In this document: one piece after another, positions 28,211 through 36,603 of the stretch | Numbering within the stretch: the first letter of the stretch is position 1 | How the letters are laid out: each line of letters opens with the position of its first letter | Assembly (NCBI RefSeq): GCF_016859285.1 | Contig: NC_053417.1 | Coordinates: forward strand, 19,714,706 to 19,778,705 | DNA from: Xiphias gladius | Taxonomy: Eukaryota; Chordata; Actinopteri; Istiophoriformes; Xiphiidae | Direction of reading: 5' to 3' | Length of the DNA: 64,000 bases | Made by a program: the position numbers and the translations under genes | The notes under the pieces: generated by a model | Seen by the model: only the letters and a program-made list of their open reading frames with translations | Databases searched by the model: none | What the model was told of the DNA's origin: nothing

Positions 28211-31200
28211 TTACAGTGATGACGTGACCCTCAGCCCTTGCATCTTCTTTGCTTGCGTCTGAGGCAGCAGTGTTTGTAGTCTGTGGGCTAGCTGTCGTGC
28301 CAGCCATATTGACTGCACTTTAAACAGGAGTCTGGCCCAGCAGTGCCACCTAAATATACCAGTTTGTGTCCCTCTTTTCATCCCTCCCAGCTGCTGTATT
28401 AAACCCCTGAAATCCTGCGGTAAGCAGTACCGAGGCACACCTCTGAGGGCTTTTGGGATGTCCCTGCTGTGACCAAGGCCCTTAAAATAAACAATGGCAA
28501 CCCCTTGACCTTTGCACTGCTGCAGCCTCCCCTGCAGGCAGCCCAGAGCAGCTGCAAACACTGGTGCTATCACTGAAGAGGATTCCATCTGTGGGTACCA
28601 GTCTTTATCATCACATAATTTAACACATTCTTTTCCTCCTGCAGCTTTCTCTTTTTTGCATTTTGCCAGTCTTCTTCCATTTAGTTTATAATCCTCTTCC
28701 CCATCTACTCTTATTTTCTCATATCTCACATCTGCTTTGCCGTCATCTTTCTTCTTTCTCTCATTCTTATCCACGTTTGTCCTTTCCTCCTTCCATTTCT
28801 GATAGGTCGTCTTGGCCTCAGGACTCCAGATAATTAGCACTTTTCCTTGTGCCTTACACACGGATTCCCACTGCCCGTACAGCCAGGGAAGCGGACCCAG
28901 ATCTGCCACTCCCTTCCTGGCCTCGGTCTGCCTTTGTGAGCTCTGGGCCCACAGAGCCATGTGCACTGTGGCACTTAGCTCCCCCTGAAGTATTGAGGCT
29001 AATGCACACGCAGCAGAGACATGGGCTGACTGCTCTGATGAGCACACCAGCAACACTGGCTTCTGGACATACAGCCGGCCTAGAGATATGGGAAAAGACA
29101 GAGGAGGATGTATCATTAGTTTGCTGAATTTCAATTAACACCAATCCCACAAATCAACTGTGGGCAATACGATACTCAAATTGAAATGTCAATGTTTCAA
29201 ATCACAAGATGGAGACATGCATGACACAAACAATGATTATTCAAATTAAAGGAGCCAGTGCTTTCACTTTGTATTTAACGAGGCAACTGAACTAACCTGC
29301 CGCTCCTGTTGTAGTACGACAGCGGATGAAAATTCCCAGTAATGCAATAAGAACAACAAGTATCAAAGCTGCCACTGCATATATGCCATATCTGTTGTGT
29401 GTGTCTGTGGAAGAGCAGAAAAGGCAGAGGGGTGTATTTACTTTGTAGAAGTTGTGTGTACACGCATGCATTCGTGTATGCATGAAGTGAGACACAAACA
29501 TGCACGTGTTGGTACATTTTGGCTTGTCTGTGTGTTTATCTTGAGCAGACTTACAGTCTAGGCACAGAATTCGTCTTCCATGACGAGCAGGATCTGACTG
29601 CCACACCTGCAGAAAAACAGACTGAAAGAGTGAGGAGAGAGAAAAAGTAATACACCATGTCAAGAAACACCTTTCTCAGTCTTTTACAAAGTTGTAGCAT
29701 GTACTTTACCTGCACACAGGGTTTCAAAGGGAGAAAGTTATGAGGCACATTTATCCTTGTCTCCTTGGTTTTCCCCTCCTGTAAAATGCATAAGACGAGT
29801 CATGTATTTCCTCACATTAACATTAAATAACCATTTTTTCTCTCTCTTTAGTTCTGTCCCTCTCTCTCACAAACGGACACGCATGCTTACCATTCTTAGT
29901 GTGTGGACCGGCCCTATGGGTGAACATCCCATCTCGTTAACAACACAAAGTTGAGCTGAGAACATTGCTGGGACAACAGAGGTGAGATATACAAAGACAC
30001 TCTGCATGCCCGGTCCAGTATACACCTCCCACGAGGATATATCTGTAAAGGACAAGGAGAGAGAGGGAATCAAGAGACGGAAACAAGACAGATAAACGGA
30101 GACGTATCGCAGCTTTTATTCCTGTTTGACTCACCAGCCAGGAAGGGGCAAGAGACCATATGTTGGCCTTGAAGAGAAAACTGCAAAAATGAAACACAAA
30201 TATGTGAATGTGTAACAAAAAGGTAAACAACTGGACATGTTTCAATGCAAGCATGTCTAGCTGATTCTCACCCGCACACACATCTTAGGGTGTTTGTCCA
30301 CTGTAGATGTGTTATATATCTGTTGGGGAGACACAATGAGTGTTTGAGAAAGCTTTATTTTTTTTTCTATTAGGAAACCATCACCAACACCACCAACAGT
30401 CCTGCCAAACTTGCCAGGTTTGGTCCATCCTCCTTCTCTTCCAGTGTGGAGTTGAGCACAGGTGTGCAGAGGTGTTCATCTTGCTTCCAGCAGAGGGAGG
30501 CGGAGATCTTCAGGTTGCTGGCAGGACACACTGAGCTCCACTTCAAACTGTCCTCATACGGCTTGACGTCAGAGGAGCGCCAAACTTCGCCGACGTCTGT
30601 TGAGGCAATGTGGACGCAAATATTTAAGACACTATGACAACAACATGCCTGACTATCCAGGGATGCAGTTGTGGGTAAACCTACTAGATTTTAATGTGCC
30701 TAACATTAATAATAGTATACTGTATCATAGTATAAACAGTATCAAACTGCTGCATGAAATTACACAAACTTTTGCTTTTAAAGAGTCAGTTCCGAGTCAG
30801 TCTGTGAAACTTTACCTGCCATCCCAGTACAATCAAGGGGAATGGAATTAAAGAGACAGTGTGACAAACTTGGGAAATACTTCCTAAATTCGCTTCACTT
30901 TATTGCCGAGAGTTAGATGTGAAGATCGATGCCACTCCACTACCTGCTCATTAATGAGAAGCTACAGCCAGATGACCGTTAGTTTAGTTTAGCATAAAGA
31001 CTGGAAATAGCTAGCCTGCTTCCGTTTTAAGGTAACAGAATCCGTTTACCAGCACTTCTAAATCTCACTAATTAACACATTAATCTGTACGAAAACCAAA
31101 GTGTAAGAACAATAACTTTAACAAGTTTACGGGGGGATTCAAACCAGACTAGCTGTTTCCCCCTGCTTCCAGTCGTTATGCTAAGCTAAGATAAGCTAAC

Positions 31201-32251
31201 TGGCTGTAGCTTTATATTTACAGGACACATATGGGATGTGGTATTGATTTTCTCATCTAACTCTTGGCAGGAATGAGCGTTTTCCCAAAATGCTGAACTA
31301 TTCTTATAATTTTCGCTGCTTAAAGTGCTGAAAGATTCCATTTGAAAAACTCAATGACTGTGGGCTCCTCCTTTGTGTTTTTGAAAAAGTAGCAATGGGA
31401 AAAGAGGCTATAGTTGTGTGCTAGTTTATAGTAGACAACATATAAGATAAAATTGTGCACTTTCGTAGGAGCTTCTAATGTACAATAAGCTACGTGACCA
31501 GTAGTGTGGCTACTGTGATAGGGCTTTTGTTTTCTGGTGATGTGAAAGACTAAGAGCTCACCCAACAGATAAAGAGAACCACCGTTGTTTTGTATATCTG
31601 AATCATAACACAGTATCTTAGTTGTCAATTAAAAAATAGTGGTAAAATAACAAAAAAAATCTCTTTAAAATTATATGTCCCTACATGGTGTATTTGTTTT
31701 CAGTTTGAGTCTGACATGGATCACCTGTTAAATCTCACCTAGGAGCCTTTCTTTTTGAAAAGGACACATTATATGTCGCCGGGAATCTATGTGGGTATAA
31801 TATACCTGTGAATGCAGACAAGACATGTACAGGAATGACAACAGACTGATTCAAAAAAATAATAATATTTCCTGTATCAAAAGATTATATGGAGCTCAAC
31901 GTACCTGTACACACACACAGGGCAGCAGGTAAGGGAGGTTAAGAACAGCTGACCGAGACTGTGACGGATCAATCTGAAAAGAACATACCAATACGTTGCA
32001 GGAAAAAAAAAAAAACAACTTGGCATATTGTCTTCATTGTGTACAAACAAAAGTGAGTTAATGCAGATAAATGTGCCACTTATACTTACAGTAATTAGGG
32101 GGGAAAGTGACCCGCCAATGCAGTCCACTTCGGTTTTTTGGTAACACCATCTGGTATGCACTTTATCTCCTGGCTCCACATTAACAGTGATGGATTTAGA
32201 CGACCGATTCACAGACAGATCAAACTTTGGTACGGGAGTTTCTAAGTCATA

Positions 32252-32308
<57 letters not shown>

Positions 32309-35300
32309 GGCTATATGATATGAGCGTCACTGTTGATAGGTCAATACAAACAGACGGGTGAATTGAAAGTAAAACCTGGATAAGTGAGCTGATAAACATG
32401 ACAAATGCAGATGCCAGACATTAGTGTTCCAGGAATATAAGAACCATGTTGATGGACATCATGAGCCTTGCTAGTGTCAAAACATTTATTGATAGAACCA
32501 CATGGAAAAGTTAATATTAATCTCCTATTATTATTCCTACCCTATTACCCTATTTTTATTTGAGGGATAATCATGCCCTAGGTTTGGAACTACAGTTTTC
32601 ATATTTTGAGGGCTCGGGCGGACGTAAACAGGAAGCTAGCTGGGTTCAGTGAAAACTCTGAGTTTGTTAACCCTGAGATATTTTCTTCAAAAACGCCCGA
32701 GTTTCCCTCTTCCTCCTCCCCTCCTGCCGAGGCTAAAGCAGCTGTCTGACTGCGCTTCATTTCCTCTGTCATATAGTTGATATCAAGGTGCATATCGGAG
32801 CGCATTAATTTGCAGGAGTTTGTGAATCTAAACACTGTCTGTCTGGCACTCCGACTCTGACAACTGGCAGGTTGTCAATCAGTTCCCCCTGCACTGAAAC
32901 ATTGACCATACATTAATCACTGCAAAAAAAAAAAAAAGAAAAAAAAAAAAACAACTTGGCATATTGTCTTCATTGTGTACAAACAAAAGTGAGTTAATGC
33001 AGATAAATGTGCCACTTATACTTACAGTAATTAGGGGGGAAAGTGACCCGCCAATGCAGTCCACTTCGGTTTTTTGGTAACACCATCTGGTATGCACTTT
33101 ATCTCCAGGCTCCACATTAACAGTGATGGATTTAGACGACCGATTCACAGACAGATCAAACTTTGGAACGGGAGTTTCTAAGTCATACACACATACACAC
33201 ACACACACACAAAAATGGCTATATGATATGAGCGTCACTGTTGATAGGTCAATACAAACAGACGGGTGAATTGAAAGTAAAACCTGGATAAGTGAGCTGA
33301 TAAACATGACAAATGCAGATGCCAGACATTAGTGTTCCAGGAATATAAGAACCATGTTGATGGACATCATGAGCCTTGCTAGTTTCAAAAAATTTATTGA
33401 TAGAACCACATGGAAAAGTTAATATTAATCTGCTATTATTATTCCTACCCTATTACCCTATTTTTATTTGAGGGATAATCGTGCCCTAGGTTTGGAACTA
33501 CAGTTTTCATATTTTGAGGGGTCGGGCGGACGTAAACAGGAAGCTAGCTGGGTTCAGTGAAAACTCTGAGTTTGTTAACCCTGAGATGTTTTCTTCAAAA
33601 GCGCCCGAGTTTCCCTCTTCCTCCTCCCCTCCTGCCGAGGCTAAAGCAGCTGTCTGACTGCGCTTCATTTCCTCTGTCATATAGTTGATATCAAGGTGCA
33701 TATCGGAGCGCATTAATTTGCAGGAGTTTGTGAATCTAAACACTGTCTGTCTGGCACTCCGACTCTGACAACTGGCAGGTTGTCAATCAGTTCCCCCTGC
33801 ACTGAAACATTGACCATACATTAATCACTGCAAAAAAAAAAAAAGAAAAAAAGAAAAAAAAACATTGAAAAACTGTGTGAAGCTTTAGACCTTCTCCTGG
33901 TGTGACTGGCTGCACTGAAGAGACATGCCCATCAGAGTTATCATATCATATTGGAGATTATGTGATATTTCTGAGTGAAGATGATCGCAGTGTGGCTGAA
34001 AAGACTTTTCTTAAAACTGGACTAAATGTAGTTTAAATGTGAGTTTTTGAATGTAGGCTGCATACAGCCTGAACTTGTTGAAAATCTACACTCAGTTTGA
34101 ACCCAGGTGCTTTTTCAACTGCATATCACCAAACTCATTAGGCTACCGCTGGGTCAGACTATGAGGTTACCACCATAGGTCTATAAACTTATATCTTATA
34201 TTTTATGTTTGACCAATATTTTCTTTTTCTGCTGCCAGCACACACTTTGTCTCCATCAGGTTACAGCTGAATAAATACATTCAAGAATGTAATCTAACAA
34301 ACAGTAGGATTTCAGCACTCTAGCATCCATTAAGGAAACAACAGTCTAGTGGACTACGCTGAATAAACTGTAATAGTGTTAACTTACTGACTCATTTTTC
34401 CAACTCAGGGTCCATCGTCACACGTCAATCTTTCCAGCTCCACTGGATTAAAATAGCAGCTCTGCTCTTTAATTAACCTTTGCCATGGTGAATCACAGTA
34501 TCTGCTGATGATGGCTTTTTTTCCCATTTACCAGGAACGCACTTAACTCAAGAGTGAACATCCTCTCAGGGTTCGTCACCTCAGATTTCAGGGTTAGGCT
34601 CAGAGTTTGTTGAACCTGCTTTCTGAAACAGGCCCCTGTTGGCTACAAGTCAAACACCATCTTTTTGAATTATATTTGTTGACATTTTGGCAAGTTGTGG
34701 CCATTAAAAATATGCTAAATTAGCTATTAGCAGTTCTTTTTTGCTGTAAACCCATGGATGTACAGACAACTATCAATGATTTACTTTGATACTGAAGAAA
34801 ATGTAAAAACATGGACAAGTTCAAGTTCTGGGGTTATGAGGAGCATCTTTATTCTGTGATTTCTACGCGGATTCGCAATGGACGGCGGAGATGATGATAT
34901 TCTGGGAAAGTCGCACCGAATCTAAAAATATTACATCATGCCTGTGGTGAAAATTAGAATGATACGACTCCCAGAAGGGGCACGCACTCTCATGCAAAAT
35001 GCAGACGCGTCTCTCCTGCCACACAGCTAGAAAAACCTGTGCCTCAGACAGAAAGCGTGAAATTAATACAAAGTTATACTGACTGATCACCTTTATCCTG
35101 TGATAAAACATTTCTATCCTGATGCGAGGTGTTTATTTCTGGGTGGAACTGCTGTCAGTCACAGGAACCGATGGGCTACTAAATGTTTTTGGATGAGCTT
35201 GAATTATATGAATCTTAGGCTACAGCATTAGCGGTCACAAGATCTCAACCTGAAAAGACACATCTGGGAGATTTTGGACAGATGTGTCAGACAGCACTCT

Positions 35301-36603
35301 CCACAGCCATTTTCAAAATACCAAATGAGGGAATATCTTTTGGAAGAATTGTGTTTCATCCCTGCAGTAGACACAGCCTTTGTCTTATACAGGCTGCTCC
35401 ATGAAGCCAGAATAAGGGAGACTGCTAAGTACCTTACCTGGCACTGTGCAATTGACAATGCAGCTTGTTGATGTCGTGCTGTAGGACACAGAAAAAATAC
35501 TATTCGCTTCAGCCTCGACACAATCACATACACGCTCCCACTGTAAAAAAAAAAAAAAAAAAAGAATGGAAAAGAAAAGAATAAAATACACCACCATCAT
35601 CATCAGTATCTTCATAAAACCATCTTCAGTAGATGCTAGAACAGGAAAATGATTCTTACCAAGGCAAGACTGGTATTGCTACGTGGCAACTCCTGGTCAA
35701 ACCTGGTTCTTTTTCCACCTGGATTTTTTACCTTCTTACACTAAGTAAGAGAAAACGGAGAAAGAGAGATGATACCGTTGTATTCCGCCTAGTTAAAAAC
35801 ATGAACTAGGTGACATTTTGACATTTTGTACATATACAGAGTTTTGGGGTAGGTGCAAAGAGAACGAGTCCAACCTTTTTGTTTTTCCTTTTTCTCATGG
35901 AACCCCTAATTATCTCTTTGAACGGCGAGAGAATTTCAATCTTTGAGGCCTTACTGTGGTCTGGAGGAACAACAATTCAACAATTAAATCGGACTCATAA
36001 GAATGGGTGGTGAAACGCGTTCATGAGACAACAAAATGGACTTTGGAGCTGTGGTTAGTCTCTGTACCATCAACCTTCATCCAAACATGGAGAGTGACAC
36101 AGTAGGAGTACATCCCCCAAGGCTCCAGGGACAGGACTGCGGCCAGTTTCACAGGGCAGTGCCCCTCCGTATAATCTGTACGGACAGAGAGGAGTATTAG
36201 TACAGCAGCTGAGGCATGTGGCCTCCACGTCTAATCACACTGCAAATGCAAAAACTTACCATTTTGATTTCCCATCTACAGCAAATACAAGAGAAGGGCG
36301 ACATAAGTTTAGGGAAATATCAAACATTCACAAAGCAGCATATGTATTTGCCTATTTACCCACCATGCATTGATCACTACATTTTTCATTAAGGAGAAGC
36401 AAAAGCCTGCTGCCGTTTTTTGGGCATCGTTTGTATAATCTAATTTAAATATTTACAGTGATTTCGCCCCGGTTCATACTACTGTGCAGCCGTCTTACAC
36501 TCACCTGGCATGTTGCGGTACATGGCAGCAGCGGCGGAAACACCACGGCAGAAACAAATGCCAGCGCGGTTCCAAGACGCACGTTAAACACCTGTAGGGA
36601 CAT
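28211..36603 (-). CDS. il17re: Interleukin-17 receptor E
   Basis: IL17RE pairs with IL17RA to sense IL-17C in epithelia and signals through a SEFIR domain. Exons: 36603-36505, 36275-36260, 36175-36068, 35960-35875, 35740-35660, 35540-35438, then one of two copies (33177-33026 or 32241-32090), 31973-31905, 31805-31739, 30596-30415, 30319-30272, 30180-30135, 30042-29891, 29778-29710, 29606-29555, 29404-29297, 29079-28211. With one copy used, the frame holds throughout: 768 residues (human 667). Signal peptide about 1-32. The ectodomain has the family marks LPYLLPCVCV and RRHIMCPFQ. The membrane segment is AVAALILVVLIALLGIFI. The SEFIR domain shows LGPLPWLYGQW and DIPKALRGVPRYCLPQDF, which mark IL17RE rather than other IL-17 receptors. 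It carries a charged insert of about 68 residues (28589-28792). Intron after 30415 appears to use a GC donor. Confidence 0.92.
30868..31305. mobile_element. Fold-back MITE in il17re intron (complete copy)
   Basis: The left end (TTGGGAAATACTTCC, then GCCGAGAGTTAGATG) is mirrored by the right end, whose reverse complement reads TTTGGGAAAACGCTC then GCCAAGAGTTAGATG. Inverted arms extend 60-70 bases. The body has the GCTAAGCTAAG and ACTAATTAACAC patterns that I recall from a very common percomorph repeat family. Non-coding; likely a non-autonomous DNA transposon. A second, truncated copy lies at 43010-43420. Confidence 0.7.
32251..32303 (+). repeat. (CA)n microsatellite, long allele, il17re exon copy 2
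   Basis: About 22 uninterrupted AC units (32259-32302) plus imperfect units. In the il17re transcript it is a UG repeat starting about 18 bases upstream of the 3' splice site of the 32090-32241 exon copy. Confidence 0.95.
33186..33211 (+). repeat. (CA)n microsatellite, short allele, il17re exon copy 1
   Basis: About 8 uninterrupted AC units, in the same position before the 33026-33177 exon copy as the longer run before the other copy. Confidence 0.95.
34670..34930 (+). repeat. Fragment of the repeat family seen at 4343-5095
   Basis: The stretch resembles 4400-4650, with shared landmarks such as GCTATTA-CAGTTC, GGATTACTTTGAT / GATTTACTTTGAT and ACTGAAGAAAA / GCTGAAGAAAA in the same order. 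The hAT-like ends seen at the other copy are not found here, so this is an internal fragment. It lies in the intron before the duplicated il17re exon. Confidence 0.5.

Follow-up and report, generated by a model that had tools for sequence, protein, structure and literature searches.

What does it mean when one exon of a receptor gene lies twice in tandem, in copies so alike that they encode the same protein, in a frame that stays open only if one of the two is used? We addressed this question for exon 7 of an il17re-like gene of Xiphias gladius, in a 64,000-nt stretch of DNA (C18:19714706-19778705 of an assembly of 690.8 Mb in 1298 contigs), hereafter the window; window positions are collected in the table below. 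An earlier note on this DNA had described a tandem repeat of about 0.9 kb at about 99% identity and had read its two exons as mutually exclusive exons at their earliest stage, with two wrongly assembled haplotypes as the alternative. Our preferred answer is a tentative one: with a probability of roughly 0.45, the repeat is a false exon gain in the assembly, and the real gene has one exon 7. A little over half of the weight falls to a real duplication, in about equal parts to an allele that is damaged or segregating and to one that is tolerated.

The repeat itself is as the earlier note had it, in coordinates, identity and exon structure. Copies A and B differ by nine substitutions in 884 ungapped sites (98.98% identity) and by a GT tract that is 28 nt longer in B; a BLAST alignment that includes the GT tract and the T-tracts gave 95.7% over 954 columns. 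Chance similarity of the two was rejected: the window compared with itself at an E value of 1e-5 yielded the A/B pair and otherwise two weak pairs of 73-74%. The copies differ most just ahead of the exon 7 acceptor, where (TG)n has 8 uninterrupted repeats in A and 22 in B. The block edges fall in poly-T tracts, and the tract between the copies begins like the downstream tract and ends like the upstream one. It thus joins one end type to the other with TTTTTTTC common to both, the pattern that tandem duplication via microhomology would leave.

Each copy carries a complete 152-nt exon, 7A or 7B, with the same intact acceptor (ACTTAG/AAACTC) and donor (ATTACT/GTAAGT); the block therefore holds two homologous adjacent exons that are each equipped for splicing. 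With 493 coding nt ahead of it, the exon starts in phase 1 and ends in phase 0. Inclusion of 7A alone or 7B alone gives the same 768 residues. Inclusion of both gives a TGA at codon 226, ten codons into the second copy, and inclusion of neither gives GAT TGA, with the stop at codon 166. Frame analysis thus makes both-in and both-out mRNAs non-productive, as for mutually exclusive exons, and bears out what the earlier note had said of phases and stops. Mutually exclusive exons are also expected to encode different sequences, and these do not: 7A and 7B differ at two sites (33107/32171 and 33167/32231, both T/A), and neither change alters the protein, again as first reported. Under unconstrained change, the chance that both would be synonymous is 0.06, and their synonymy would fit either alleles or two copies both in use.

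The nine substitutions between the copies are unevenly spread (range 494 of 894, P 0.04), and three of the nine are transitions (P 0.10 assuming a transition share of 0.6); both values are too weak to use. Each copy includes about 280 nt of a transposon-like element of ~1.1 kb (approximately 33549-34640) with imperfect inverted repeats, so other copies of the element could serve to polarise the differences. The element's right part gave 57 assembly matches from 40 scored candidates, including the two copies here, the others being 71-97% identical over parts. Site 231 had the B state in seven and the A state in three of 12 copies, and site 244 had the A state in ten and the B state in two of 14. 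These two readable sites disagree and a third gave no data, so that no clear original could be identified among A and B by this means. Copies elsewhere were rejected as the source of the block, the best-scoring other match to the transposon part being only 78% identical over 142 nt.

False exon gains within one gene are a described class of assembly error (PMC9516828). In the case proposed here, two parental haplotype versions of one 0.9-kb il17re stretch, about 1% apart and with different GT-repeat lengths, would have been written consecutively and joined inside a poly-T tract, leaving an apparent second exon 7. Reads would then be expected to show half depth over each copy, with none crossing both. 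The ~1% divergence and the variable GT tract would suit allelic copies, and like the published false gains, the il17re pair combines near-identical exons in one gene, a haplotype-like distance and a second case close by (PMC9516828). Also in favor of a false gain, the modelled il17re frame is otherwise open throughout if the weak exon 3 donor is used, and both exon differences are synonymous.

That second case came from a self-comparison of 164 kb around the locus, in which tandem blocks were defined by tandem spacing and minima of 200 nt and 90% identity. Two blocks were found, the il17re block and one beyond the right edge of the window (L008:3469-5932). The latter lies in a WNK gene, as identified by the family CCTL2_WNK (E 8.1e-15) and the WNK1 chain 5g3q (E 3.5e-17). 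Its copies differ by two substitutions and three indels in 1157 columns, with a longer indel difference beyond these, and its joint carries the microhomology GAACTTAAA. Reading from one WNK copy into the next leads to a TGA after three or four codons (two acceptors were tried), so that here, too, use of both copies breaks the frame. Frame-breaking doublings in two genes this close suggest that both have one origin, the simplest being that the assembly placed haplotypes in tandem. No tandem block was found in ten other 10-kb pieces of C18, nor in 28 loci of ~3 kb (86,860 bases). One of the ten pieces (L021) begins with a run of N at positions 1-2705, possibly an assembly gap. These scans, 264 kb and the 28 short loci, are too little to give a genome-wide rate, and with the il17re block as the given finding, the clustering rests on one independent case, WNK, in the 264 kb scanned.

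Several observations weigh against an assembly error. The earlier note's haplotype alternative gains from the nearby second block, but gapless sequence and the character of the joints count against it. The published false gains are mostly separated by gaps and covered at half read depth, whereas the il17re repeat is gapless and its joints carry microhomology (PMC9516828). There is no N in the 164 kb around the locus, and hence no gap between the copies. The microhomology at the il17re and WNK joints (TTTTTTTC and GAACTTAAA) is exact and speaks for real events. Such microhomology is the usual mark of real tandem duplication, and exact overlaps of this length are not normally enough for an assembler to join two sequences. 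The two joints lie at unrelated sequences, and their copies have diverged to different degrees (9/884 vs 2/1157). Moreover, a third copy of exon 7, such as a leftover haplotig, was not found anywhere in the 691-Mb assembly; across its 1298 contigs, exon 7 was found at these two places only. (In a bacterial and archaeal collection, eight pattern matches to exon 7 were returned, none confirmed as relatives.)

If the duplication is real, it could have arisen recently by microhomology-mediated joining of T-tracts in introns 6 and 7: the T13 C T14 joint begins as the downstream tract does (T13 C) and ends in the manner of the upstream one (T7 C T13). We consider it possible but rather unlikely that such an event produced an il17re allele that is hypomorphic or null, and that may be heterozygous or segregating, in which double-exon mRNA stops at codon 226 and decays. 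The introns measure 2260 nt from exon 6 to 7A, 784 nt from 7A to 7B and 116 nt from 7B to exon 8; 784 nt poses no steric bar to the use of both exons, and with identical donors, ordinary splicing could include both. In the double-exon form, the stop at nt 676 precedes the 7B/8 junction (nt 797) and ten exon junctions in all, of which the last is at nt 1590, and the usual distance rule predicts that this mRNA decays. If the two copies are included independently, at rates pA and pB, the share of productive mRNA is pA(1-pB)+pB(1-pA), which is 0 if both rates are 1, 0.18 at 0.9 each and 0.5 at 0.5 each, and equals pA if B is silent. By this formula, the effect of a duplicate depends on exon strength: a strong exon makes it harmful, and a weak exon, or the silencing of one copy, makes it tolerable; at 0.9 per copy, 18% of the mRNA would be productive. 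Duplication of DMD exon 2 likewise shifts the frame and brings a stop, mostly with disease as the result, although that is a known disease allele with measured transcripts and the il17re case is known from sequence (PMC8047432). Two points stand against a damaged allele. The ~1% divergence suggests some age, yet the exon changes are silent and the remaining frame is open from start to stop, given a weak exon 3 donor; and the poor exon 7 acceptors may hold inclusion far below 1.

The exon 3 donor bears on this question directly. The open 768-aa model requires a weak donor (ATG/GTACAG) at 36067. Ahead of the exon 3 TGA there is one other GT in phase 1, further upstream at 36100. Use of the donor at 36067 removes a segment, GTETNHSSKVHFVVS, that alone matched no Pfam family and that we take to resemble conserved receptor sequence. 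The proper donor of exon 3 may have been lost, or the exon may be misassembled or used differently; an exon without a good donor is what a decaying gene would have. Should the gene already be damaged at exon 3, the earlier note's argument for exactly one exon 7 in a functional mRNA would carry less weight; its frame logic is exact, and its premise is weakened. In any case, the phase rule is a statement of what a useful mRNA must contain, and not that the cell makes such an mRNA.

A gene that tolerates the duplication is, in our estimate, unlikely. Here, weak and UG-rich acceptors would make both exons leaky, the (UG)22 tract would lower the use of 7B, and decay would clear the double and empty mRNAs, each copy alone restoring the same 768-aa protein. 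The acceptors of 7A and 7B have a pyrimidine fraction of 0.5 at -5 to -24, the lowest among the 17 in the gene model (0.6-1.0 in the others). By the longest pyrimidine run, 7B (2) is again the lowest, but 7A (5) is not, since exons 10 and 14 have runs of 4. Many UG repeats together with few Us repress use of the CFTR exon 9 polypyrimidine tract through TDP-43 (PMC12171016), and by analogy, the long UG tract before 7B would favor 7A; with pB near 0, output would equal pA. As in the (TG)m(T)n element of CFTR exon 9, UG repeats lie directly ahead of a weak acceptor, but il17re exon 7 has no U tract between repeat and acceptor, and the effect is putative (PMC12171016). Position opposes it: the short 116-nt intron between 7B and exon 8 should favor 7B. 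In addition, a GT tract would be the fastest-changing part of any duplicate, and its difference in length need not be adaptive.

Very improbable, finally, is that the exons were mutually exclusive from the start, with a single left inverted repeat in intron 6 pairing with the duplicated right repeats such that 7A would be looped out whenever the left repeat engages the B arm. This is the layout from which, in the proposal of Ivanov and Pervouchine, docking and selector sites arise: one inverted-repeat arm was duplicated along with the exon, and its partner upstream stayed single (PMC6071210). That single arm would be the left end of the same transposon-like element. The inverted matches of 34564-34588 with 33562-33586 and 32654-32678 (25 nt, 76%) head the list, arm duplex energies of -60.7 (A) and -57.5 (B) were reached by none of 300 shuffles for either copy (shuffle means -42.8 and -42.3), the best of 72 scored intron 6 windows overlap the left arm, and cofold gains beat 100 of 100 shuffles for A and 97 of 100 for B. 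However, this stretch contains two further inverted pairs of almost the same quality (24 nt, 75%), and in a scan of 50-nt windows, other pairs did better than the arms (-41.4 vs -38.6 at best for copy A; -41.4 vs -37.6 for copy B). The fold of 34660-33480 contained no pair between the left and right arms, and in the base-pair probabilities for 34760-31974, the left arm was essentially unpaired with the right arms (expected pairs 7e-6 and 4e-6) and paired locally. An unrestricted fold paired the A and B right arms with each other, looping out 7A, a result that changes with the allowed span; pairing of the A arm alone would not exclude 7B. In contrast to the published model, the arms are imperfect, resemble the ends of a transposon and go unused in the computed fold (PMC6071210). 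The evidence thus leans against docking and selector pairing, and our search for an exclusion device by intron length, inverted matches, duplexes, folds and ensemble demonstrated none.

Mutual exclusivity is only partly supported. What is left of it would be the constraint of the reading frame, with unproductive mRNAs presumably removed by decay, the situation described for U2AF1 (PMC5224494). There, inclusion of both or neither of exons Ab and 3 leads to stop codons and decay, and single inclusion is productive (PMC5224494). The il17re pair resembles this arrangement in that both or neither gives a stop, but the U2AF1 pair is kept throughout vertebrates, changes the protein and was demonstrated by experiment, whereas the il17re pair is ~1% diverged, encodes one protein, is known from sequence alone and is possibly false (PMC5224494). 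For the earlier idea of nascent mutually exclusive exons, the frame logic and the U2AF1 counterpart (PMC5224494) stand, and no working exclusion device was found.

The gene model that carries exon 7 belongs to the IL-17 receptor family, with matches to the IL17_R_N ectodomain (PF15037, E 5.6e-20) and the SEFIR domain (PF08357, E 2.9e-12); the closest solved structures by sequence to the 768-aa model are IL-17RC chains (best E 2.8e-5). Exon 10 ends at 30415 in a GC donor (AACCTG/GCAAGT). A second SEFIR-domain gene, probably il17rc, lies nearby, placing two IL-17 receptor genes side by side. The receptor pair is flanked on one side by bromodomain/PHD exons (brpf1-like, 45.8-49.4 kb) and on the other by an EGF_CA exon (creld1-like, 13.5 kb). 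We take the gene order to be brpf1, il17re, il17rc, creld1 and assume the names of the flanking genes accordingly; the names il17re and il17rc rest on the earlier note and on this order.

Table 1. Features of the il17re-like locus and of the nearby WNK block (window positions unless a locus is named)
Feature	Position	Strand	Remarks
il17re-like gene model	28211..36603	-	17 coding exons with one exon 7 counted; 768 aa; IL17_R_N and SEFIR domains
Exon 3 as modelled	36068..36175	-	frame reaches TGA at 36023-36021 unless weak phase-1 donor is used
Exon 6	35438..35540	-	ends in phase 1; coding length through exon 6, 493 nt
Left inverted-repeat region	34530..34650	-	candidate docking arm; intron 6, outside the duplication, single
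Upstream poly-T tract	33832..33862	-	T9 C T7 C T13 in transcript direction, before copy A
Copy A	32938..33831	-	894 nt: ~280 nt of transposon-like element, intron, exon 7A, first 88 nt of next intron
Right inverted-repeat region, copy A	33520..33610	-	candidate selector arm; inverted match to left region
7A acceptor region	33178..33211	-	(TG)8; pyrimidine fraction tied lowest with 7B
Exon 7A	33026..33177	-	152 nt; start phase 1, end phase 0
Junction poly-T tract	32924..32951	-	T13 C T14, between the copies
Copy B	32002..32923	-	922 nt; GT tract longer than in copy A
Right inverted-repeat region, copy B	32612..32702	-	candidate selector arm; inverted match to left region
7B acceptor region	32242..32303	-	(TG)22
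Exon 7B	32090..32241	-	152 nt; two synonymous differences from 7A
Downstream poly-T tract	32003..32015	-	T13 then CC, after copy B
Exon 8	31905..31973	-	starts in phase 0; 116-nt intron separates it from 7B
Second SEFIR-domain gene	20568-19741	-	~8 kb downstream of il17re-like gene
WNK tandem block	L008:3469-5932 (C18)		~3.5 kb past right window edge; gapless, start-to-start 1313 nt, two exons doubled

At the level of titles and abstract openings, the literature yielded no description of an il17re exon duplication, which is not proof of absence. The pair, if real, would be a very young case of tandem duplicated exons. Known pairs are mostly ancient (PMC9741552), and the survival of a frame-breaking duplicate in its first generations has thus not been seen directly. 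A pair that is 1% diverged and encodes one protein would, if real, test whether single use arises at once, through weak sites and decay, or evolves later. It is highly improbable that the pair was exclusive at birth, with a microhomology duplication copying one transposon inverted-repeat end and exon 7, the single upstream repeat docking on one selector and the longer UG tract silencing the second copy; if true, this would be the step postulated by the Ivanov-Pervouchine model, caught before the exons diverged (PMC6071210). If the repeat is instead the assembly error that we tentatively prefer, it is a warning that gapless tandem exon doublings at ~99% identity can mimic nascent alternative splicing.
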